DNA of 64,000 nt from NCBI RefSeq assembly GCF_001984155.1, contig NZ_MTQO01000041.1, forward strand, positions 1 through 64,000, given 5' to 3'. Both the position numbers and the translations under genes were made by a program. The notes below the pieces were generated by a model, which searched no databases, had not been told where the DNA came from, and was given only the letters and a program-made list of their open reading frames with translations. Below, one piece after another: positions 20,900-56,935 of the stretch. This DNA is from Actinosynnema sp. ALI-1.44 (GTDB taxonomy: Bacteria > Actinomycetota > Actinomycetes > Mycobacteriales > Pseudonocardiaceae). Numbering within the stretch: the first letter of the stretch is position 1; each line of letters opens with the position of its first letter.

Positions 20900-23800
20900 C
20901 TACGACTGTCCTTTGTCGAGCGTGGCCAGCTGGGCCAGGATGGTCGCGGTGGTGATGTCGGGTTCTTCTGTGTACGTGAGGTTGACGTTCGCGAGGATGG
21001 CCAGCGCGGCGTTCCAGTGCTCGCGGCTTCGGTCGGTGTCACCCAGGGAGCTGAGGGCATGGGCGATACCGTTGTGGGCACGCGCTTGCACACTGGGTTG
21101 GCCGAGTTCGTCCGCCAGTTCGAGCGCTGTTCGATGGTGGCTGAGGGCGTCGCAGTGGCGTCCGTCGGCTTGATGGACCCGGCCGATGCCTTGGTGTGCC
21201 TCGGCTTGGAACATCGGGTCGCCGGTTTTCATGGCGATGGTCAGTGCTTCCTGGTAGTAGTCGACGGCCTTCCGGTACTGCGCCAGTTGCCGGTGGACGT
21301 TGCCGAGGGCGCGGAGCGTGAGCTGTTCGCTGATGGGGCTGCCGGAGGCCCTGGCCATGGCCAGAATCTCGTGGTAGGTGTCCACGACTGATCCCGGTTC
21401 GCCTTGCAGCCATTGGAGGTTGGCGATGCAGCGCATCGCGTGTTGCACAGCGCGGTAGTGTCCGATGCCGCGGCTCACGGTGAGTGCGCGCTGGTACCAG
21501 GCGGCAGCCTTGTCGTAGTCGCGCAGCGACTGGTGGGCGCCACCCAGGCTGAGCGTCGTGCCCAGTTCGGCGACGCGGTTGCCGGTTTCCACCGCGATGT
21601 CCAGCGCCCGCTCGAGGTAGTCGGTGGCGGAAGTGAACTGGTTGCGCTGCATGTGGACCTCGGCGATGCCGTGCAGTGCGTCCTGTTCGCCCGCGCGGTT
21701 GCCCGCCGCGCGGGCCAGGACCAACGCCTGCCGGGCCTGGTCGGCGGAAAGGTCGTACCGGCCGTACCACAGATGAACGGCGCTCAGGCAGGCCAGGGCG
21801 TTGTGGATGGCGACGTGATCGCCCCCAGCGCGGGCGTGGTGGAGCGCGAGGTCGTTGATGGCCAGGGCGTCGGTGTAGAGGCTTCGGATGCGCAGGTAGC
21901 GGTGCAGGATGGTGGCCTGGTGGCTGGTGTGGTCCGGCCGCCCGTGGCCGGGTGCGTGGTGGGCGGTGGCGAGGATGTTGCCTAGTTCGGTGTCCAGCCA
22001 GAGCAGTGCTTGTGCCTCGTCCTCGAGAGGCGGCGTCGGTGTGCCGGGGGCCGGTATGGGCGGGCGTTCATCGATTTCCCACGGGTAGGCGGCGTCCCAC
22101 GGGTAGGCCACCGCCAGGGCGGCCGATGTGGTGTACGCGTAGAAAGCGAAGACGCGATCGAGCGCGGCCCGCTGTTCGGCTTCGGGGGAGCCGCGGGCCA
22201 GTCTGGTGGCGTAGCTGGCCACGAGGTCGTGCAGCGTGTAGCGGTGGTAGTCGGTTTGGATGACCAGGCTGGCCGTGTGCAGGTGCTCCAGCAGTCGCCG
22301 TGCCTCGTTGATCGTCGTGTCGGCCAGTGCGGCGAGGGCGTACGGCTCGATGTCGACGCCGGGGTGCAGGCCGAGTAGCCGGAAGGCGTGCTGCTGGTCC
22401 GGGGCGAGGTGGCGGTAGGACACCCCCAGCGCGGCGCTGACCGCGCGATGCCCGTCGGACAACCAGTCCAGTCCCTGCTCGGTCGTGAGCACGTCGGTCA
22501 ACTCGGCGAGCAGCCGTGCTGGTGTGCCTGCCTGGTTGGCGCGCAGACGGGCGGCGACGATGCGGATCGCCAGGGGGAGATGCCCGCACAGCGCCACGAT
22601 GCCCGCGATGGTGCGTGCGTCCGCTGGGGTTGCCCGGTCGGCGACGAGGGCGCGGAACAACGCCGCTGCCTCGCCTGCGGGAAGAACCGGCAGGTTGAGG
22701 TGGACGGTGTCGTCCAGACCGACCAGGTGCCGCCGGCTGGTGACCAGCACGCCGCACCCGCGCGCCGCGGGCAGCAGCGGTCGGAGCTGGGCTTCGTCGG
22801 CGGCGTTGTCCAGCACGATCAACACTCGCCGCCGGGCGAGGACCGATCGGTAGAGCGCCGATCGCGCGTCTCGGTCCGACGGGATCTGGTTGCCGGACAG
22901 CCCCAGGCCCCGCAGGAGGTACTCCAGTGCGTGTTCCGGGGCGACCGGGTCCACACCGGGAGTGAACCCGTGCAGGTCGATGAACAGCACGCCGTCGCTG
23001 AACCGGTCGGCCAGCCGGTGCGCGGCGTGGACGGCCAAGGTGGTCTTGCCCACCCCCGCCATGCCCTCCACAGCGGAGATCACCACCGTCCCCCGCGCCC
23101 GTCCGTCGCGGTGGACGGGCCAAAGCCGGAGCAACTGACTGACCAGGTCGTCGCGGCCGGTGAAGTGAGCGGTGTCGGCAGGCAGCTGAAACGGCACGGC
23201 CGTGCTGTCGGGCTGCGGTCCCGCCGTGACCGCGACGGGCTGCCGCGCGGGGTCCTCCGCCAGTATCCGCTGGTGGAGCTCCCGCATGCCGGGACTGGGC
23301 CGGACGCCGAGTTCCCTGCCGAGCAGGTGGTGGACCTCCTGGTAGACCGCGAGCGCGTCGGACTGCCTGCCGCTGCGGTAGAGCGCGAGCATCAGGTGTT
23401 CGCGGAGCCGTTCGCGCAGCGGGTGTGCCGTGATCAGCGAGGTGATCCGGGGGATGAGCCCGGCGGACTCGCCGACGGCGAGCTTCAGCTCGATCTGGTG
23501 TTCGGCGGCGGCGAAGTACTCCTCGTCGAGGCCGGCCATGTGCTGTCCGAGCGTGCCGGTCCACTCTTCCCGCGCGCGTGCCCGCCACAGGCCCAGACCC
23601 GCGTCGAGGTTGTCGATGGCCTCGGCGAAGTCGCCGCCTGCCGCGGCGGCCCGGCCGCGCTCCACGTGCGCCCGGAACCGCTCGAGATCCAGCTCACCGG
23701 GCTGGACACGGATCGCGTACCCGTTCGGCTGCGCAACGATCCGTTCCGCCGTGCCGGGCTCGATGTCGGCGAACGCGCGGCGGATGCGGGAGACATAGGT

Positions 23801-23992
23801 GCGCAGCGCCGCGACAGCCGTGTTCGGCAACCGGTCGTCCCACACCGCCTCGATGAGGTGTTCGTGGGACACGCCGCGGTTGGCTTGCAGAAGCAGGGTG
23901 ACCAGCACGGCGGTCGGCTTGCCGGTGAGCCGCATCCGCCCGTGCTCGCCGTGGACCTCCAGCGGCCCCAGAATGTGGAACTGCATCGACAA
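20900..23992 (-). CDS. AfsR/SARP-family regulator with NB-ARC and TPR domains
   Basis: A 1030-aa regulator in AfsR order: OmpR-type winged helix (MSMQFHILGPLEVHGEHGRM, RTYVSRIRRAF), BTAD at about 95-240 (GELDLERFRAHVERGR, LALYRSGRQSDALAVYQEVH), NB-ARC ATPase with Walker A GMAGVGKTT near 310 and VLIVLDNAADE as Walker B, then C-terminal TPR repeats (about 600-1000). Such proteins activate secondary-metabolite or morphogenesis genes by binding 11-bp-spaced direct repeats and contacting sigma factor. ATG 23986 is an alternative start giving MQFHILG. It is one of two AfsR-like genes within 9 kb. Confidence 0.93.
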   Translation of the reverse strand: MSMQFHILGPLEVHGEHGRMRLTGKPTAVLVTLLLQANRGVSHEHLIEAVWDDRLPNTAVAALRTYVSRIRRAFADIEPGTAERIVAQPNGYAIRVQPGELDLERFRAHVERGRAAAAGGDFAEAIDNLDAGLGLWRARAREEWTGTLGQHMAGLDEEYFAAAEHQIELKLAVGESAGLIPRITSLITAHPLRERLREHLMLALYRSGRQSDALAVYQEVHHLLGRELGVRPSPGMRELHQRILAEDPARQPVAVTAGPQPDSTAVPFQLPADTAHFTGRDDLVSQLLRLWPVHRDGRARGTVVISAVEGMAGVGKTTLAVHAAHRLADRFSDGVLFIDLHGFTPGVDPVAPEHALEYLLRGLGLSGNQIPSDRDARSALYRSVLARRRVLIVLDNAADEAQLRPLLPAARGCGVLVTSRRHLVGLDDTVHLNLPVLPAGEAAALFRALVADRATPADARTIAGIVALCGHLPLAIRIVAARLRANQAGTPARLLAELTDVLTTEQGLDWLSDGHRAVSAALGVSYRHLAPDQQHAFRLLGLHPGVDIEPYALAALADTTINEARRLLEHLHTASLVIQTDYHRYTLHDLVASYATRLARGSPEAEQRAALDRVFAFYAYTTSAALAVAYPWDAAYPWEIDERPPIPAPGTPTPPLEDEAQALLWLDTELGNILATAHHAPGHGRPDHTSHQATILHRYLRIRSLYTDALAINDLALHHARAGGDHVAIHNALACLSAVHLWYGRYDLSADQARQALVLARAAGNRAGEQDALHGIAEVHMQRNQFTSATDYLERALDIAVETGNRVAELGTTLSLGGAHQSLRDYDKAAAWYQRALTVSRGIGHYRAVQHAMRCIANLQWLQGEPGSVVDTYHEILAMARASGSPISEQLTLRALGNVHRQLAQYRKAVDYYQEALTIAMKTGDPMFQAEAHQGIGRVHQADGRHCDALSHHRTALELADELGQPSVQARAHNGIAHALSSLGDTDRSREHWNAALAILANVNLTYTEEPDITTATILAQLATLDKGQS

Positions 23993-24219: not shown

Positions 24220-25917
24220 CTAGTGCGTATTAACCGCGTACTCCGGTAACTCCCGTGCGGACTTCGCCCAGTCGGCCACCACGTCGGCCAGGACCGGCAT
24301 GGGCAGCGTGCCCCCGCTGAGCAGGACGTCGTGGAAGGCGCGGATGTCGAACCGGTCGCCGAGCGCGTCCTGTGCGGCCGTCCTGATCCTGGTGATCTCC
24401 ATCCGGCCGACCATGTACGCCAGCGCCCGACCGGGCAGCGCGACGTACCTGTCGACCTCCGCTCCGACCTCCACCTCCGGGATGGCCGTGTTGGCGCGCA
24501 GGTAGTCGACGGCCCGCGCCCGGCTCCAGCCCTCCGCGTGCAGACCGGTGTCCACGACCAGCCGCACCGCCCGCATCGCGTCGAACACGAGCATCCCGAG
24601 CCTGGACAGCTCGTCGGAGTACAGGCCCATCTCGTCGGCCAGCCGCTCCGCGTAGAGGCCCCAGCCCTCAACGTACGCGGTGCTCAGCGGCAGCCTGCGC
24701 AGCATCGGCAGGTCACGCCGTCCCTGGGCCCTGGTGACCTGGAGGTGGTGACCGGGCACGGCCTCGTGGAACGCCATGGCCTCGGCGGCGTGGCGGTAGC
24801 GCTCGGTGGGGTGGCTGATGTTCGTCGAATAGGTGCCCGGCCGTGTGCCGTCCGGCGAGGGCATCAGGTACATCGCCGACGGGACCGCCGCCTCCTCGGC
24901 CGGGGCGACGGGCTCGACCACGCACCGCTGCTCCGGCACGACCGTGAACCAGTTCGGCGCCTCGGACTCGGCCTTCCGGATCGCCGTACGGGCCGCGTCG
25001 AGCATCTCCTGCCCGTCGCGCCACCGCAGCGTCCGGTCGTCCCGCAGCCTGCGGAAGACCTCGTCGACGCCCCGCGACCCGAACAGCCGCGCACCGCACT
25101 GCTCGATCTCCGCACGCAGGTCGGCCACCAGGCGTTCGCCGGTGCGGTGCAGCACGCGCGCGGCGTGGTCGGTGTCGGTGTGCACCCTGATCAGGCTCGC
25201 GTAGATCGACTCGCCGCCGGTGATCCAGCACAGACCGGGCTTGTCGTCGTCGCGGGCGCTCGGTGCGATCCCGCCGAGCACGGCGCGGTACCTGGCCAGC
25301 GCGGGCCGGATCTCGGTTTCCAGCAGCCGCAGGCCTTCGTCGGCGTACCGTTCCATGCCCTCGTGACGGATCGGGTCGAGCAGCGGGTCGTCCGCGCCGA
25401 GCGCCAGAGCCCGATCCAGTTGGACCGTCGCGGCCCGCGTCAGCCGCCCCACCGGCAGCCGTCCCGCGACTGTCCCGCCGACGTGCCGGTTCGCCGCCGC
25501 GGCCAGGTACCCGCTGAACGCCGACAGCCGCCGCAGGTACGCCTCCGCCTGGTCGCCGTCCGCGATCCGGACACGCGGCAGGTAGTGGAACACGCGCGCG
25601 GCGGGCGCGACGAAATGATGCGTGACCGTGTACTCCACCGCACGGGAGTCGAGCCGGTGCACGACCGCCTCGGCTTGTTGCTGGACAACAGCCCTGGTCA
25701 CGCGGTCGGCCGCGGGCAGCAGGCGGTCGTCGAGTTCGCGTGCGCGGGTCGCGGCGGCGGCGGCTCGGGCCCGCAGCCTGCCCTCGGCCTCCTCGGACAA
25801 GTCGGCCAGCGCGCTGTCGGTGTCCCCGATGCCGTACATCGTCGCCAGGAGCGGATCCTCGTCGGCGATGATCTCGACGAGCTCGTCCGCGAGCGTCTTG
25901 ACCAGTTTCCCGGGCAC
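24220..25917 (-). CDS. DUF885 family putative metallopeptidase
   Basis: A 565-aa protein of the DUF885 family. The zinc-binding helix motif is seen near residue 380 (AMAFHEAVPGHHLQVTRAQG, HExxxGHH) followed by the conserved STAYVEGWGLYAERLADEMG that provides the third ligand and is diagnostic of the family. No signal peptide, so cytoplasmic; length is normal. Start GTG 25917 follows GGTGAGG. These enzymes are proposed carboxypeptidase-type proteases, with few characterised. It diverges from a SARP gene and lies 4.5 kb from a SagB/peptide pair, so a role in peptide maturation is possible but unproven. Confidence 0.85.
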   Translation of the reverse strand: MPGKLVKTLADELVEIIADEDPLLATMYGIGDTDSALADLSEEAEGRLRARAAAAATRARELDDRLLPAADRVTRAVVQQQAEAVVHRLDSRAVEYTVTHHFVAPAARVFHYLPRVRIADGDQAEAYLRRLSAFSGYLAAAANRHVGGTVAGRLPVGRLTRAATVQLDRALALGADDPLLDPIRHEGMERYADEGLRLLETEIRPALARYRAVLGGIAPSARDDDKPGLCWITGGESIYASLIRVHTDTDHAARVLHRTGERLVADLRAEIEQCGARLFGSRGVDEVFRRLRDDRTLRWRDGQEMLDAARTAIRKAESEAPNWFTVVPEQRCVVEPVAPAEEAAVPSAMYLMPSPDGTRPGTYSTNISHPTERYRHAAEAMAFHEAVPGHHLQVTRAQGRRDLPMLRRLPLSTAYVEGWGLYAERLADEMGLYSDELSRLGMLVFDAMRAVRLVVDTGLHAEGWSRARAVDYLRANTAIPEVEVGAEVDRYVALPGRALAYMVGRMEITRIRTAAQDALGDRFDIRAFHDVLLSGGTLPMPVLADVVADWAKSARELPEYAVNTH

Positions 25918-26011: not shown

Positions 26012-29000
26012 ATGGTGGGAGACACCGACTTCCGCCTGTTGGGAACGCTGGACGTGGCGGTGTGGGGCAACGAGGTCACGGTCCCCGCCGGGAAACAGCA
26101 GGTGGTGCTGGCCGGGTTGCTCCTGCGTGGCAACCAGATCGTGCGCGTCAGCGAACTGATCGACTGGTTGTGGGACGACGAGACGCCGGACAACGCCGCG
26201 TCGACCGCGCAGGCCTACGTCCGCCGGTTGCGGCAGACGCTCAAAGCCAGGGACCTGATCACCACGATGCCGCACGGGTACCGGATCAACATCGAGCCGG
26301 ACGAACTCGACCTGTTGCGGTTCCGCGCGCTGGCGGGCAGGGCCGACCTGGCCGACGACCCGGCCGAGCGCTCCGAGCTGATCACCGGCGCTCTCGCGCA
26401 GTGGCGCGGGCCGGCGCTGGCCGACATCCCGGCGTGCTCGTTCCGGGAACGCGAGGTCCAGCGGCTGACCGAGGAGCACCTGCGGGCGACCGAGGTGCGC
26501 ATCGACTGCGACCTCTCACTCGGCAGGCACGCGGAACTCCTGCCGGAACTGCGCACCCTGGCCACCCAGCACCCGTTCCGGGAACGGCTGCGCGGTCAGG
26601 TGATGCTCGCGTTGTACCGGTCAGGCCGCCAGGTCGAGGCGCTGGCCAGCTACCAGGAAGTCCGCGCCACCCTGGCCGACGAGGTCGGCGTCGACCCGGG
26701 TGAGGAGCTGCAACGGCTGCACCAGCGGATCCTCACCAACGACCCGGCGCTGTCGCTGAGACCCACCCCGCCACCGGTGCAGGCACCCCCCGAGGTGATC
26801 CACCAGCCCGCGCCGCGTCCCGTGCCCCGGCAGCTGCCCGCGGGCCTGCGTGACTTCGTCGGGCGTGAAGAGACCTACGAGCAGATCATCGACCTGATGT
26901 CAGGCAACGACGACGACCCCGGCATGGACACCACCGTCGGCGCCGCCGTCGTGGCGATCTCCGGCCAGCCCGGCGTCGGGAAGACCGCGTTGGCCGTGCA
27001 GGCCGCACACCAGTTGCGCGGCCAGTTCCCCGACGGCCAGCTGTTCGTCGACCTGCTCGGCAACGCGCTGGACCGCGAGCTGACCCCGGAGCAGGTGCTC
27101 GGCCGGTTCCTGCAGGCGTTCGGCCTGCGCCCCGACCAGCTGCCCGACGACCACAACGGGCTGGTCGGCGCGTACCGGACCCTGCTGGCCGACCGGCGGG
27201 TCCTGGTGGTGCTGGACAACGCCGTCAGCGCCGGGCAGGTCCGCAGTCTGCTGCCGACCATGCCGGGCTCCGCGGCGCTGGTCACCAGCCGCAAGACGTT
27301 GCGTGGCCTGGCCGCCCTCGGCGGGGCCAGGCTGGTCAACCTGGACGTCCTGCCGCCGCACCAGTCGGTCGAACTGCTCGACACGATCGTCGGGCAGGAC
27401 CTCGAACGACCCGATCCCGGGGCGCTGGACGAGATCGCCCGGCTCTGCGGGCACCTGCCGCTCGCGTTGCGCATCGCGGGCGCGAACCTGCTGCTGCGCG
27501 ACGACGACTCGATGCACGCGTACGTCACCGACCTGCGGCACGGCAACCGGCTGACCGCGCTGGAGATCGAGGACGATCCCGGCGCGGCGGTGCGCGCCGT
27601 GTTCGACCTGTCCTACCTGACGCTGAAACCCGAGGCCGCGCGGCTGTTCCGGCTGCTGGGCCTGGTGCCGGGACCGGACTTCTCCCGGCACGCGGTCGCG
27701 GTGCTCGCCGGCCTGCCGGGCGACCGGACCGACAAGCTGCTGGCCGAACTGGCCACCGCCAGCCTGATCCAGCGGATCGGCTCGCACCGGTTCCGGTTCC
27801 ACGACCTGCTGCGGCTCTACAGCCAGGAACGCTGCCAGATCGAGGAGAACAAGGACGAGTCGGACGCGGCCCGTGCCCGCCTGTTCGCGTTCTACGTGCG
27901 GCGGCTGGACGCGATCGCCGACGTGCTCTACGGGACGTGGGTCCGGCTGCCCCGCACCGAGTTGGAGGAGTCGTTGCCCCGCCCGGTGTTCGCCGACGCC
28001 ACGGCGGCCGTCGAGTGGATGGACCAGGAAGGCCCGAACATCATCGCCGCGATCCTGTACGCGGCGGGAAACGGGCCCGCGTACGCCGCGTGGCACCTGG
28101 TCGAGTCCCTGCGCGCCTACCTGGCGACCCGGGGCCGCTACCGGGCCGAGAGCCTCGTCGCCGCCCGCGCCGCCCTGCACGCCGCGCGCGTCGCGAACGA
28201 GCCCGACGCGGAAGCCGCGATGCACCACGTCATCGGCTCGATGTACCTGCGCGTCCAGGAACTCGGCAAGGCACTCGAGCACCTGGTGGCCGAACTGGAC
28301 GCGTACACCAGGGCCGGTTCGCAGGCGGGCCGCGCGGGGGCGATGATCAGCATCGGCACGATCCACCAGGCGGACGGCAAGCTCAGGGCGGCGGCCGAGG
28401 AGGTCGAGCGCGGCGTCCGGCTGGCCGAGGAACACGGCTTCGACAGCATCCGGCTCTTCGGCCTGATCAACCTCACCATCATCGAGGAGCAGCGCGGACG
28501 CCTAGACCGGGCCGAGCGGTACGCGCACGACGCGCTCGCGCTGCTGCCGTCGAGTCCGAGCCCGTCGGTGGAGGGCACCACCCGGGCCAGCCTCGGCCAC
28601 ATCATGGTCCGGCAGGGCCGGTACGACGAGGCGGTCGTCCAGTACGACAAGGCTTTGGTGTGCTACCGGGAAACCGGGACCCAGCACTACGAAGCCGAGA
28701 CACTGCGCGGCCTCGCCGATGCCAACCGGCTGGCCGGTGACCACGCCGCGTCACTCGTGCACGCCCGTGCCTCGGTGGCGCTGGCCGCGCAATCCGGGGT
28801 GGAACAGGACCAGGTCGACGCCATGGTCACGCTTTCCGCGACACACCAGGGAATGGGGGACGTCGACGACGCGGCTGCCTGTGCGCGCAAGGCGCTCGAG
28901 CTGGCTCGTCGGCTGTCCTATCTGCCCGGTGAGATCTCCGCGTTGCTGCGGATGGCGTCGCAGAGTCGTGAGCGGGGAAACCTGACCACGGCGAGGGAAC

Positions 29001-29323
29001 ACGCCACCAACGCGGTGGAGTTGAGCCGTGACGCCGAGTTGCTGGGGTTCGAGGGCCGCAGCGAGAAGCTCCTCGCCTGGCTGGCGTACGACGCCGGCGA
29101 CCTGGCCGCCGCGCGTGACCACGCCGAGAAGGCGTTGGCCGTCAACCGAAGCGCCGGTGCCCAGTTCGGCCAGGCGCAGGCTCTGCACGTGTTGGGGCTG
29201 GCGTGGGACGCGGACGGCGACCGCGCCACGGCACGGGCCTGCTGGGAGGAAGCCCTGGTCTGCATCGGCGGGCTGGAGATCCCCAACGCGGACGAGTTGC
29301 GGCGCCTGCTGGCCAGGCCCTGA
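26012..29323 (+). CDS. AfsR/SARP-family regulator with NB-ARC and TPR domains
   Basis: A 1103-aa regulator. Winged helix at 1-95 (DFRLLGTLDVAVWGNEVTVP, STAQAYVRRLRQTLKARDLI), BTAD at about 100-250, Pro-rich linker (PTPPPVQAPPEVIHQPAPRP), NB-ARC with Walker A GQPGVGKTA near 316 and VLVVLDNAVSAGQ, then many TPR-like helices to the end. Similar architecture to the 1030-aa gene 2 kb upstream but only moderately similar in sequence, so the pair is not a recent duplication. Its own promoter carries SARP-type repeats, suggesting autoregulation or control by the neighbouring SARP. Converges with the SagB gene. Confidence 0.93.
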   Translation: MVGDTDFRLLGTLDVAVWGNEVTVPAGKQQVVLAGLLLRGNQIVRVSELIDWLWDDETPDNAASTAQAYVRRLRQTLKARDLITTMPHGYRINIEPDELDLLRFRALAGRADLADDPAERSELITGALAQWRGPALADIPACSFREREVQRLTEEHLRATEVRIDCDLSLGRHAELLPELRTLATQHPFRERLRGQVMLALYRSGRQVEALASYQEVRATLADEVGVDPGEELQRLHQRILTNDPALSLRPTPPPVQAPPEVIHQPAPRPVPRQLPAGLRDFVGREETYEQIIDLMSGNDDDPGMDTTVGAAVVAISGQPGVGKTALAVQAAHQLRGQFPDGQLFVDLLGNALDRELTPEQVLGRFLQAFGLRPDQLPDDHNGLVGAYRTLLADRRVLVVLDNAVSAGQVRSLLPTMPGSAALVTSRKTLRGLAALGGARLVNLDVLPPHQSVELLDTIVGQDLERPDPGALDEIARLCGHLPLALRIAGANLLLRDDDSMHAYVTDLRHGNRLTALEIEDDPGAAVRAVFDLSYLTLKPEAARLFRLLGLVPGPDFSRHAVAVLAGLPGDRTDKLLAELATASLIQRIGSHRFRFHDLLRLYSQERCQIEENKDESDAARARLFAFYVRRLDAIADVLYGTWVRLPRTELEESLPRPVFADATAAVEWMDQEGPNIIAAILYAAGNGPAYAAWHLVESLRAYLATRGRYRAESLVAARAALHAARVANEPDAEAAMHHVIGSMYLRVQELGKALEHLVAELDAYTRAGSQAGRAGAMISIGTIHQADGKLRAAAEEVERGVRLAEEHGFDSIRLFGLINLTIIEEQRGRLDRAERYAHDALALLPSSPSPSVEGTTRASLGHIMVRQGRYDEAVVQYDKALVCYRETGTQHYEAETLRGLADANRLAGDHAASLVHARASVALAAQSGVEQDQVDAMVTLSATHQGMGDVDDAAACARKALELARRLSYLPGEISALLRMASQSRERGNLTTAREHATNAVELSRDAELLGFEGRSEKLLAWLAYDAGDLAAARDHAEKALAVNRSAGAQFGQAQALHVLGLAWDADGDRATARACWEEALVCIGGLEIPNADELRRLLARP

Positions 29324-29336
29324 CGTCAGGGCCTGG
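29313..29336. terminator. 24-bp perfect palindrome spanning both stop codons
   Basis: Bases 29313-29336 form a perfect 24-bp palindrome (half-site CCAGGCCCTGAC) centred between the convergent SARP and SagB genes. It contains both stop codons (29321-29323 plus, 29326-29328 minus), and both proteins end in Arg-Pro as a result. Probable bidirectional terminator. Confidence 0.7.
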
Positions 29337-30405
29337 TGCCGATCGCGGCGCAGCCCATCACCACTTCGTGGCTGGCTCGCACCCCGAGCAGGTCCTCGAC
29401 CAGTTCGTCGCGCATCGCCGATGTGAACGTCACACCCAGCCCGAGCGAGGTCGCCAGCAGGTACACCGTCTGGCTGACATGACCGATGTCCATGTGCAGC
29501 AATCGATACGTGCGCGGGGCGTGGTAGCGCCACATGCTGCGGGCCAGGACGCACGTGAAGAAGACGAGCATCCCGGCTGTGCCGACCCACGGCTGGTCGC
29601 CGACGATCGTGCCGAGTTCGTCGTCGGTGCGCGTCCCGCCGATGCGTTCCAACGTGTGCTTGCCGGGGTTGTAGTGGTACGTCCCGGGTTCGACGCCTTC
29701 GATCGCCCTGGCGTAGACGTAGACCTCGGTCGGGTGCCGCCCTCCGCCGGAGGGTGAGGTTTTGAACACCGTCTGTGTTCTCTCGTCCTTGGCGACAATG
29801 CCCACGGCGATCTGCAGCAATGCCGCGGCCGACGTCAACGGGATCGGTGTCTCGGCGAATTTCCGGTCGCTGCGACGCTGGTAAAGCACTTCGACCAGGT
29901 CGCGTTCCTGCCAGGTCGCCGCCGACCGGTCCGGCAGGTCGACGACATCGGCGTCGGCGAAGGTGTGGTGCGCGCACGGCGCGGGCTGCTTTTCGAGTTT
30001 TCCCTCCAGCAGCACGTGGTACTCGTCGTCCGATTTGAACATGCCGTCGGCGAGCGAGCGGGTGGAGAAGTGGAACGCCGACGCCAGCCGTCCCCACGGC
30101 CGCCATGCCGCGTCCGTCGACTCCTCGAACCGGTGCCGTTCCGAGCCTTCGGCGACGAGGATGTCGTTGTCCAGGAAGATCCTGGCAACCTTGGCGTAGC
30201 GAGCCAGTCGAGCCGGCTCGCCAGCCATGTCCGATATGGACTCCAGTGGCTTCCATTCGCTGAACCAGCGCAGCACCGGTTCGGTCCCCTCGGTCAGCGC
30301 GAACCGGCGATGGCGAACGGTGTCGTCCCAGACGAGTTGCCCGGAGTTCCAGTAGGAAATACCGCACGAGGACACTCGGACTCGTGCGGTACTGTCATTC
30401 CCCAT
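29326..30405 (-). CDS. SagB/ThcOx-family dehydrogenase
   Basis: A 359-aa FMN-dependent oxidoreductase of the nitroreductase fold, SagB/ThcOx branch. The C-terminal two-thirds shows RRSDRKFAETPIPLTSAAAL, the branch motif TSPSGGGRHPTEVYVYARAI, and HMDIGHVSQTVYLLATSLGL. The N-terminal 140 residues (GQLVWDDTVRHRRFALTEG, LRWFSEWKPLESI) look like the winged-helix peptide-binding region found before the catalytic domain in ThcOx-type enzymes. SagB enzymes oxidise azolines to azoles in RiPPs. No YcaO cyclodehydratase is in the window, so another oxidation may be done here. It starts 17 nt after a 34-codon acidic peptide gene. Confidence 0.85.
   Translation of the reverse strand: MGNDSTARVRVSSCGISYWNSGQLVWDDTVRHRRFALTEGTEPVLRWFSEWKPLESISDMAGEPARLARYAKVARIFLDNDILVAEGSERHRFEESTDAAWRPWGRLASAFHFSTRSLADGMFKSDDEYHVLLEGKLEKQPAPCAHHTFADADVVDLPDRSAATWQERDLVEVLYQRRSDRKFAETPIPLTSAAALLQIAVGIVAKDERTQTVFKTSPSGGGRHPTEVYVYARAIEGVEPGTYHYNPGKHTLERIGGTRTDDELGTIVGDQPWVGTAGMLVFFTCVLARSMWRYHAPRTYRLLHMDIGHVSQTVYLLATSLGLGVTFTSAMRDELVEDLLGVRASHEVVMGCAAIGTRP
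30361..30390 (-). repeat. Inverted repeat at the start of the SagB gene
   Basis: ACCGCACGAG (30361-30370) and CTCGTGCGGT (30381-30390) are perfect 10-bp arms with a 10-nt loop, within codons 6-15 of the dehydrogenase. In the mRNA the hairpin would lie shortly after the enzyme's start and could lower its expression relative to the peptide upstream. Confidence 0.65.
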
Positions 30406-30422
30406 TTCGCGTGCGGACTCAC

Positions 30423-30527
30423 TCAGCGTGGCGGCCGCGGAATGGTGGGGACGTGCACTTCATCCACTCCGTAGCTGTTGAGTAACTCCTCGAACGCGAC
30501 CTCGGCGTCCTCATCGTCGTCGTACAT
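30423..30527 (-). CDS. Candidate RiPP precursor peptide
   Basis: A 34-aa frame behind a good ribosome site (GGGGG, 7 nt before ATG 30527). It opens MYDDDEDAEVAFEELL, a strongly acidic helical leader-like part, and ends VPTIPRPPR, a short Pro/Arg-rich core-like tail. It is followed after 17 nt by the SagB-family gene on the same strand. The order acidic leader, basic or Pro-rich tail, and adjacent modifying enzyme fits a RiPP precursor. Cys is absent; only Ser18 and Thr28 could form oxazolines. The same frame extends upstream to 30653 without a ribosome site. Not recognised as any known precursor family. Confidence 0.6.
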   Translation of the reverse strand: MYDDDEDAEVAFEELLNSYGVDEVHVPTIPRPPR

Positions 30528-30694
30528 GTGAAACCCCCAGTTTCGATTCGGGACGCGTCTGCGTGTGCCTGGAATTCGGCTGCGCTCCCGATACTCTCGA
30601 CTGTACCGAAACGGCCGAGCCTGTGGCAGGGATTTTTGCCAGCCGGCAACCAACGTATCTGCCGCTGTCCCGCCGGGCGTGCTTCACTGATCGT

Positions 30695-31725: not shown

Positions 31726-32238
31726 ATGCGGTTTACTCCTGCTGTGCCCGAACGTGCCGTGACCCTCACCCCGCTGGACGAGGCGGGTCTTGCCCGGCTG
31801 CTCGACGCGGCGGTGGCCGACTCCGACCCGCTGGAGGTCATGCCGCCGGTCGACGGACCGGACGGCTGGACCTCCCGCCGCAGGGAGGCTTTCCTGGCCT
31901 TCCACCGGAAGCGGACGCTCGACCCGGCGACCGCCGTCGAGCGGACCTGGGTGATCGACGTGGACGGCGTCGCGGCGGGCGCGGCCCGGCTGGAACGGCA
32001 CGGCGACGACGTCGAAGCCGGGATCTGGCTCGGCCGCACCCGCCGCGGCCGGGGAATCGGCAAGCGCGTCATGGACCTGTTGCTCGACGCCGCGAAACAC
32101 AGCGGTGCCAAGCGGTTCGTCGCTTCGACGACGACAGGCAACCACGGCGCACGTGGCCTGCTCACCGGTCTGGGCGCCGCCATGTCCGTCAACCAAGACG
32201 AGGTGCACGCGGCCCTTTCGTTGCTCGAGTCCGGCTGA
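31726..32238 (+). CDS. GNAT-family N-acetyltransferase
   Basis: A 170-aa protein of the GNAT fold. The acetyl-CoA binding motif is IWLGRTRRGRGIGKRVMDLL (R-x-x-G-x-G/A). It starts 8 nt after the esterase stop, at ATG 31726 or GTG 31744, so the two are probably one operon. The last 50 bp overlap the end of the convergent MFS gene. It could N-acetylate an amine or a protein N-terminus; the substrate is unknown. Confidence 0.82.
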   Translation: MRFTPAVPERAVTLTPLDEAGLARLLDAAVADSDPLEVMPPVDGPDGWTSRRREAFLAFHRKRTLDPATAVERTWVIDVDGVAAGAARLERHGDDVEAGIWLGRTRRGRGIGKRVMDLLLDAAKHSGAKRFVASTTTGNHGARGLLTGLGAAMSVNQDEVHAALSLLESG

Positions 32239-33391
32239 TCGCGTACGCCGTCGCGCCGAGCACCAGCGCGGCGGCGACCAGGATCGCGCTGACCACCAGC
32301 GGCGCCCGATTCCCACCGAGGCCGACGGTGAACGCCACGCCGCCGAGCGCGGGACCAGCGGCGGCCCCGACGTTGAACGCGGCGGTGGCGAACCCGCCTG
32401 CCAGGGTGGGCGCGTCCGTCGCCGCGTAGAGCGCCTGGGTGATCAAAGTGGACCCGACGCCGAACGACAACATCCCTTGCACCACCACAAGCACCAGTGC
32501 GGCAACGGGCTGGGCGGCGAGGAGCACGAACGCCAGCCAGCCCACGAGCAGCGCCGACGTGCCGACAGCCAGCAGTGGCATCGGGTGGGCGTCCGCCAGC
32601 CCGCCGACCGTGACCCCGACGAACGAACCGATCCCGAACAACGCCAGCACAGCGGGAACCCAGCCGCTGCCGAGACCGGTCGCGCCCGTGATCACCGGTG
32701 CGAGGTAGGTGAAGGTGCAGAAGGTCGCGCCATTGACCAACGCACCCAGCACAAGGGTGACGATCAACCGTGGCGTGCGCAGCGCGCGCAGTTCATGGCG
32801 TGCGCTGGGAGCGGCAGGGTCTGCCGGGGTCGCGGGGACAGCGCGGAGGATCGCGAACAGAGCGGGCACGGAAACCGCGGCGACGGCCCAGAACGCCGAC
32901 CGCCATCCCCAGAATCCACTCAGGACAGCACCGAGCGGGACACCCGCGATGCAAGCCAGTGTGATACCGCTCAGCAACACCGACGTGGCGCGTCCCTTGC
33001 CCCGCGGGCCCGCCAGACTCGCCGCGGTGGCCAGGCCGACGGCCAGGAAGCCCGCGTTGGCCAGCGCGGCGATGACCCGTGTGGCGAACAGGACCTCGAA
33101 GCTGGTGGTGACGGCACCGATGACGTGCACGGCGAAGAACGTGGCCAGGAAGGCCAGCAGCGCCCCGCGCCGGGGCCACCGCAGGCTCAGCAGCGCGACC
33201 AGCGGCGCGCCGACGATCATCCCGACCGCGAACGCGGGCGTCAGCGACCCCACGGCGGGAATGGAAACACGCAGGTCACCGGCGATGTCGTGGACAAGAC
33301 CGGACAGCATGAACTCGGAAGTCCCCTGGGCGAACACGGCCAGCCCGAGGACATGGACAGCGAAAGGCATGAAGAGGCTCCACAGCGGCAT
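32189..33391 (-). CDS. MFS drug-efflux transporter (DHA1, Cml/CmrA-like)
   Basis: A 400-aa membrane protein with about 12 transmembrane segments. The opening FAVHVLGLAVFAQGTSEFML is typical of the chloramphenicol/AraJ-type DHA1 exporters, and the loop SLRWPRRGALLAFLATFFAV is the motif-A region. The later RVIAALANAGFLAVGLATAA and VLLSGITLACIAGVPLGAVL (motif C area) also fit. Likely exports a hydrophobic drug using the proton gradient. ATG 33370 is an alternative start. The 3' end overlaps that of the GNAT gene by 50 bp on the opposite strand. Confidence 0.88.
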   Translation of the reverse strand: MPLWSLFMPFAVHVLGLAVFAQGTSEFMLSGLVHDIAGDLRVSIPAVGSLTPAFAVGMIVGAPLVALLSLRWPRRGALLAFLATFFAVHVIGAVTTSFEVLFATRVIAALANAGFLAVGLATAASLAGPRGKGRATSVLLSGITLACIAGVPLGAVLSGFWGWRSAFWAVAAVSVPALFAILRAVPATPADPAAPSARHELRALRTPRLIVTLVLGALVNGATFCTFTYLAPVITGATGLGSGWVPAVLALFGIGSFVGVTVGGLADAHPMPLLAVGTSALLVGWLAFVLLAAQPVAALVLVVVQGMLSFGVGSTLITQALYAATDAPTLAGGFATAAFNVGAAAGPALGGVAFTVGLGGNRAPLVVSAILVAAALVLGATAYAISRTRATKGPRAPRLG

Positions 33392-56715: not shown

Positions 56716-56775
56716 CCCGAACATTCTAGGACCGTTCGGCCGTCCACAGACCCGGCACGCCTCGGGTAGGGTGAG

Positions 56776-56898
56776 TTCGCCGGGCCGCACGGACCGGTTC
56801 CGTCCAGGCAACCAGGAAGCCGGTGTGACTCCGGCACGGTCCCGCCACTGTGACCAGGCCACGGTCTGGGAGTCAGGAACTGCCCTGAACGGATGGCC
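56776..56898 (+). ncRNA. Cobalamin riboswitch
   Basis: The conserved core is readable: GAAGCCGGTGTGACTCCGGC (56815-56834 region), then ACGGTCCCGCCACTGTGACC and later GGGAGTCAGGAACTGCC. These are the AdoCbl riboswitch B12-box elements in order. A TAGGGT -10 (56767-56772) precedes it. It ends about 40 nt before ATG 56936, so folding likely controls access to the ribosome site. High cobalamin should switch the following operon off. Confidence 0.9.
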
Positions 56899-56935
56899 CA
56901 GCTGGGACGAGGACATCCCGGACGGAGTGGTGACC

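Follow-up and report, generated by a model that had tools for sequence, protein, structure and literature searches.

In the available text of PMC12636437, nitroreductases encoded in YcaO-free RiPP loci are described as rare and functionally uncharacterised. A precedent for such an activity is reported there as well: the nitroreductase domain of PflD, an MNIO-nitroreductase fusion from the pfl RiPP cluster that is paired with a HEXXH enzyme, makes Z-dehydroPhe (-2 Da) in a ribosomal precursor without a YcaO protein. In the azole-forming dehydrogenases of LAP/TOMM pathways (SagB, McbC, and ThcOx/CyaGox), a Lys-Tyr motif matters, and the cyclodipeptide oxidase AlbA/AlbB, an α,β-dehydrogenating enzyme of nitroreductase-like fold, appears to use a Tyr base, as far as the accessible part of PMC11055893 describes these enzymes. 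Additionally, ATP-grasp branch 6 loci with a SagB-like nitroreductase have been reported (accessible part of PMC8939145), and NCBIfam family TIGR04511 (SagB_rel_DH_2) comprises putative peptide maturation dehydrogenases. While these related pieces (PflD, ATP-grasp with SagB, and TIGR04511) are known already, we found no description of the pairing of a peptide gene with a stand-alone SagB gene among the listed matches from the open-access literature, a search outside which most subscription papers lie.

Such a pair is present in a 64,000-nucleotide stretch of Actinosynnema sp. ALI-1.44 (contig NZ_MTQO01000041.1), referred to here, at its full length, as the window. Like PflD, it has a YcaO-free nitroreductase domain; here, however, that domain sits in a stand-alone, apparently RRE-like/nitroreductase protein next to a 34-aa precursor. 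The features of the locus are as follows.

20900..23992, minus strand: second SARP/NB-ARC/TPR regulator, on the far side of the DUF885 gene (domain matches)
24220..25917, minus strand: DUF885 protein, a neighbour whose link to the pair is uncertain (domain match)
26012..29323, plus strand: SARP (BTAD)/NB-ARC/TPR regulator, convergent with sagB, with 2 nt between the stops (domain matches)
29324..29325, no strand: point at which B-lineage relatives have an MFS exporter gene separating sagB from SARP; the window and genome G002 lack it (neighbour comparison and tree)
29326..30405, minus strand: SagB-type FMN dehydrogenase, 359 aa (TIGR03605 and PF00881 matches)
29338..29883, minus strand: nitroreductase domain, residues 175-356 (PF00881; profile alignment to McbC and CyaGox)
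29524..29532, minus strand: W292-R293-Y294, at the place of the azoline-dehydrogenase Lys-Tyr motif (profile alignment)
30160..30384, minus strand: N-terminal PqqD-like (RRE-like) domain, residues ~8-82 (via remote relatives)
30423..30527, minus strand: precursor-like 34-aa peptide MYDDDEDAEVAFEELLNSYGVDEVHVPTIPRPPR, stop included (ORF reading; same-length G002 orthologue)
30426..30470, minus strand: C-terminal variable tail GVDEVHVPTIPRPPR, the proposed core, with one Thr, no Ser, and no Cys (translation and alignment)
30471..30497, minus strand: A11-Y19, a hydrophobic-x6-Tyr segment, the proposed recognition and/or target segment (alignment; p = 0.46 in the window, not significant)
30534..30538, minus strand: GGGGG, a likely ribosome site, 6 nt ahead of the peptide's ATG (read from the sequence)
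32189..33391, minus strand: MFS gene of a different cluster, shared with G002, 1.8 kb upstream beyond an esterase gene (PF07690)

The pair formed by the 34-codon ORF and the SagB-type dehydrogenase gene was confirmed as real. Only 17 nt separate the ORF (30527..30423) from the sagB ATG at 30405, and the 359-aa protein matches both TIGR03605 (122.9 bits; cut-off, 78.4) and PF00881 (81.3 bits; cut-off, 23.5), in agreement with the original prediction, which had been made from the letters of the window and had also seen a good ribosome site before the peptide, namely, the GGGGG listed above. The whole window precursor contains no Cys, one Ser, and one Thr. It matched no known precursor family in Pfam or NCBIfam, and neither did the peptides of its relatives (10 searched in NCBIfam and 9 in Pfam); the few matches, at E values of 0.015 to 0.19, were all below cut-off.

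SagB matches of some kind were found in 54 of the 100 genomes searched, the strain's own genome included. In each of the seven other genomes of this genus, a close SagB relative was present (46 to 79% identity), with a 34-aa ORF immediately ahead of it. A scan of genome contigs yielded 73 loci, 42 of which (L059 to L098, L111, and L129) align with the window protein along almost all of its length, at listed identities of at least 35%. With the window and G002 added, the peptide was present at 44/44 near-full-length relatives and at 4/4 further ATP-grasp loci (L044 to L047), that is, at 48/48 loci in all, spanning 16 named genera at the same listed identity of at least 35%. This count leaves out L101, where the enzyme is partial and the peptide is there; L099 (a full-length match with a listed identity of 34%) and L100 (a partial match), where the upstream short ORF is longer, dissimilar, and devoid of the motif discussed below; and the weaker partial hits L102 to L110, L112 to L128, L130, and L131. 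A second, frameshifted sagB copy in G002 (L051, G002:C1:7248141-7249201) had no matching peptide within 3 kb.

In most loci, sagB immediately follows the peptide gene. The ATP-grasp subgroups have the peptide gene upstream of the ATP-grasp gene, which itself precedes sagB; in Microbispora, it is upstream of a TPR gene; and in Dactylosporangium, it is ahead of that same TPR gene, on the opposite strand. Since no gene cluster besides that of sagB exceeds 22 of the 47 loci compared, we regard peptide and sagB as the constant pair. The original prediction had staked itself on two points, that the 34-codon frame be conserved in relatives and that homologous SagB genes not always occur without it, and on both the comparison came out in its favour. 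A conserved, genetically encoded precursor accompanied by a modifying enzyme, as the general definition of a RiPP asks for, is what these loci contain.

The peptide frames evolve as coding sequence, with measured purifying selection in five clades: pairwise dN/dS within clades was 0.29 in clade B (4 rows), 0.58 in C (6 rows), 0.17 in E (10 rows), 0.54 in F (2 rows, hence one pair), and 0.14 in G (6 rows), with L071 and L081 excluded for length. The peptide ORF was also less divergent than the preceding 105 nt, in an ungapped comparison that exaggerates the contrast, and the G002 orthologue, equal in length to the window peptide, shares 16/34 residues (manual count) and 62% of bases with it. 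In Microbispora sp. H13382, the precursor has one unit, readable as a 34-aa frame, and those of M. amethystogenes and M. triticiradicis have three units each, which makes them resemble multi-core precursors. These data bear on the suggestion that the short ORF has a regulatory role, as an upstream ORF, with SagB acting on a small molecule, as has been proposed for the SagB-type enzyme of the nocobactin locus, which acts outside RiPPs (accessible part of PMC7413640). While the short gap in the window would permit translational coupling, the low dN/dS across the peptide, its retention in the ATP-grasp and TPR layouts, where it does not adjoin sagB, and the unit repeats of Microbispora lead us to consider this explanation very unlikely.

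When 32 peptide units were aligned on the Tyr, that residue was present in 30; the two exceptions come from Actinocrispum (Asn) and Nonomuraea deserti (His). Position -7 was F, L, V, or I in 32/32 units, a count that is built in for 15 rows, in which the script demanded the -7 residue, the anchor having been set by hand in the other 17; position -4 was L, Y, or H in 27/32 units, and position -1 was D or E in 22/32. Most clades have this hydrophobic-x6-Tyr segment in common, followed by a variable tail, and no tail residue was common to all clades in this alignment. With the tested clade left out of its training, a profile scored against 5000 shuffles gave p < 0.05 in 7 of the 11 representatives, i.e., G002 (0.020), Microbispora (0.001), and clades B (0.019), F (0.047), G (0.015), H (0.0004), and I (0.014); clades C (0.058) and D (0.087) were marginal, and clade E (Amycolatopsis) reached 0.70. 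The window peptide did not rise above its own shuffles on this cross-clade profile (p = 0.46), and its best placement fell on Tyr2, not Tyr19. Since the motif alone is insufficient here, we assign the window peptide to the group by its position and its G002 orthologue. A motif-bearing short ORF preceded 30/33 sagB genes of the adjacent layout versus 3/324 control genes in the same loci, a comparison that is partly circular, because the motif was derived from those same peptides; the three misses were L067 and L068, in which N and H, respectively, replace the Y, and L070, with a C preceding the Y.

A near-invariant Tyr might also be expected if the peptide were not a substrate at all but a small subunit or activator of an oxidase with a small-molecule substrate, in the way AlbB serves AlbA, and cyclodipeptide oxidases do pair a nitroreductase-like subunit with a catalytic-Tyr partner (accessible part of PMC11055893). 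The likeness to AlbA/AlbB is drawn from the description of that enzyme, and the two systems differ in that the AlbA/AlbB substrate is a cyclic dipeptide and its partner protein a catalytic subunit. In our peptides, by comparison, the tails are diverse, containing Cys in Rhodococcus and Nocardia, and three tandem units occur in Microbispora; with the MFS exporters and the RRE-like domain of the enzyme also counting against it, we think such a subunit role improbable.

The enzyme itself contained PF00881 as its sole Pfam domain at E values up to 0.1, and no MNIO domain. TIGR04511 was the best NCBIfam match of the window protein (158.8 bits) and of 7/7 relatives scanned (3 of them remote), with all eight proteins scoring 128 to 167 bits, under the cut-off of 240. 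The nitroreductase domain aligns with those of CyaGox/ThcOx (5lq4) and McbC (6gos) and shares the K/R-Y motif region with the LAP/TOMM azoline dehydrogenases. Among 33 sequences, position 293 was K in 24 and R in 9, and position 294 was Y in 28, F in 4, and H in 1; the window enzyme has Arg at the place of the catalytic Lys.

Compared directly with 25 PqqD domains, the N-terminal domain of the close group (~100 residues) scored 0.8%, no improvement on the controls (0.3% for the reversed sequence and up to 1.1% for 20 column shuffles). The same region of 10 remote relatives (L048 to L050 and L052 to L058), however, matched the PqqD domains at 73% in hhalign (E 3e-5; 40 column shuffles, at most 1.1%) and the close group at 98% (E 3e-13), and the close group and remote relatives combined matched PqqD at 29% (E 6e-4; shuffles, at most 0.9%). 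Searched against the PDB with hmmsearch, the N-terminal domain gave two matches, with E values of 1.5 and 2.6. The N terminus of the enzyme looks PqqD-like (RRE), a resemblance detected only through the remote relatives. The ThcOx-like, peptide-binding N-terminal region claimed originally is thus upheld in part: a PqqD-like domain seems to be there, but the sequence showed no ThcOx-like clamp, and ThcOx has two clamp domains (accessible part of PMC5108345), whereas the window enzyme has one short N-terminal domain.

As to the usual ring-forming partners, searches of the strain's own genome turned up no YcaO (PF02624), radical SAM, or LanC-like protein on the contig of the window, in line with the earlier claim that none is nearby, and tblastn with five YcaO proteins found none in the window; a LanB query matched none of its controls and was uninformative for that reason. 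YcaO genes do occur in the genome, five in number, and three of them adjoin their own SagB. Besides the window's, the genome has three SagB-like hits (C15, C28, and C49), and each of these lies within ~6 kb of a YcaO gene; the window's is the exception. Across the group, 45/48 loci had no YcaO hit (6 to 10 kb searched on each side as a rule), the hits being confined to L081, L082, and L089 (Nonomuraea), with TfuA as well in L082. Of what defines a LAP/TOMM system, the window has the SagB/McbC-type FMN dehydrogenase; it lacks a YcaO cyclodehydratase alongside the precursor, and the Cys, Ser, or Thr expected in the core is reduced to one unconserved Thr.

Azole formation is unlikely, because the window tail contains a single Thr and neither Cys nor Ser and because no tail residue is common to all clades; the tail of K. 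persicum, EEPIDKIFGFVQRAEG, has no Cys, Ser, or Thr whatsoever. This bears out the earlier judgement that normal azole formation is hardly possible. One could still suppose that a YcaO protein encoded elsewhere acts in trans to give LAP/TOMM-type azoles, a proposal for which the five YcaO genes, the Thr in the window tail, and the YcaO and TfuA neighbours in Nonomuraea might be cited. Given the K. persicum tail, the scarcity of YcaO hits across the loci, and the prior attachment of three of the five YcaO genes to their own SagB, we deem it very unlikely.

An ATP-grasp gene cluster was found in 11/48 loci (L084, L086, L087, L088, L090, L091, L129, and L044 to L047). In subgroups H and I, the ATP-grasp gene precedes sagB, matches TIGR04187 under the cut-off, and has a short precursor at the head, a gene layout like that of the ATP-grasp branch 6 loci (accessible part of PMC8939145). 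The window differs from them in that no gene of this cluster was called within ~10 kb of its pair, which leaves it without the enzyme that a graspetide assignment calls for.

Regarding the neighbouring genes, the SARP/NB-ARC/TPR cluster, present in 22/47 loci compared, was the commonest companion alongside the MFS exporter. The best NCBIfam match of the window regulator was AfsR, and its match to the RiPP-linked HaaT was far below the cut-off (271 of 1125). One MFS cluster, a member of which has PF07690, was found in 10/47 loci. The B lineage has the gene order sagB-MFS-><-SARP, as against sagB-><-SARP in the window and G002. In the tree, the window and G002 group together (99/99) and are then joined by B (100/99); since the MFS-bearing clade C falls outside them (99/95), the MFS gene between sagB and SARP was probably lost in the window lineage. 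With the second MFS gene 1.8 kb away, the window lineage may still export its product. In Hoyosella/Lolliginicoccus, no SARP, MFS, or ATP-grasp cluster gene was called (L094 being mostly without gene calls), and the subgroups have their upstream neighbours in common and differ in their downstream ones. The pair had originally been termed minimal, which holds for the window and G002, Amycolatopsis, Kutzneria, and Hoyosella/Lolliginicoccus, all without further cluster enzymes or exporters; other members add MFS, ATP-grasp, or YcaO-TfuA.

The DUF885 and SARP genes reported earlier are indeed both alongside. The idea of DUF885 as a dedicated leader protease, however, was weakened: the genome has seven DUF885 matches in all (six over the cut-off), and with DUF885 near 8/28 loci compared, it is not a consistent partner. 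Farther away, a cobalamin riboswitch aptamer (RF00174, 46.3 bits) was found at window positions 56762-56902 on the plus strand.

The reading that we favour, and to which we give somewhat better than even chances, is that of a RiPP-like cassette made up of one precursor and one RRE-nitroreductase that oxidises it, with Cα-Cβ desaturation as the most plausible reaction. Probably, this is a peptide-modification system of very small size, which in most cases lacks the usual ring-forming enzyme. The SagB protein would use its PqqD-like N-terminal domain to dock the acidic, Tyr-containing part of the peptide, after which the FMN domain would carry out a two-electron oxidation of the peptide. A residue would most plausibly be desaturated at its Cα-Cβ bond (-2 Da), the target being either the near-invariant Tyr or a tail residue. 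The SARP/NB-ARC/TPR protein might control the peptide-sagB pair, and in relatives the product might be exported by the MFS protein, for which the window lineage may use another exporter. We base the desaturation proposal on the precedent of the PflD nitroreductase domain (dehydroPhe, YcaO-free) and on the cyclodipeptide oxidases.

Several observations speak against this favoured reading: the Tyr is replaced by Asn or His in two systems, no one tail residue is kept throughout the clades, the window and Amycolatopsis peptides fail the motif test and clades C and D are marginal in it, the RRE is undetected in the close group alone, the catalytic Lys is Arg in the window, the regulator matches AfsR best and the RiPP-linked HaaT far below cut-off, and the cassette has no assigned leader protease. 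The peptide might instead be the substrate of some other two-electron oxidation, at the Tyr side chain (or as a crosslink), at the C terminus, or at a group installed by an enzyme encoded elsewhere. That Tyr is the most conserved residue would be explained by a side-chain reaction, and the ATP-grasp or YcaO-TfuA partners of other clades, as well as the JmjC protein of a remote relative, also speak for such a reaction. However, the two systems with Asn or His seem intact, and nitroreductase-fold enzymes acting on RiPPs or dipeptides make azoles or dehydroamino acids (accessible parts of PMC12636437 and PMC11055893), so that we regard another oxidation as rather unlikely.

Going beyond the desaturation proposal, we tentatively put forward, while thinking it doubtful, that these loci represent a distinct, widespread RiPP type, whose sole dedicated enzyme would be a leader-binding (RRE) nitroreductase that desaturates one residue of a 34-residue precursor (if it is the conserved Tyr, as it might be, to dehydrotyrosine), with ATP-grasp or YcaO-TfuA having been added in other clades. 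The clade offers dozens of natural pairs of a tiny precursor and a single enzyme, varying in tail, unit number, and partner enzymes, which make the function of YcaO-free nitroreductases directly testable in E. coli; if the desaturation reading is true, they would also provide a small tool for backbone desaturation.

Other SagB arrangements were seen alongside the group. In L099, in which the upstream short ORF ends in YRYRGDTCCA, and in L100, an ORF of 76 to 98 aa lies ahead of SagB and is common to a Cellulomonas MAG and Nonomuraea typhae. For remote SagB relatives (~28 to 31% identity) at which no YcaO was hit, a very short, basic peptide with a strong ribosome site is encoded within ~300 nt before sagB, in L048, L049, L052, and L055 and in L050, L053, L054, and L056. 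These peptides are of two types, MR..I.ARPV..R...FFWVWQHS-like and KVRRKKTR..LSNHPA-like, and the loci look like further stand-alone SagB peptide systems. Finally, in L057 and L058, a MFEIEIVEDEMTLLNHPTL-like peptide is followed by SagB and then by a JmjC_2/cupin protein (PF08007 in L057; the same cluster in L058), and in L057, an MFS gene (cluster c7) comes next.
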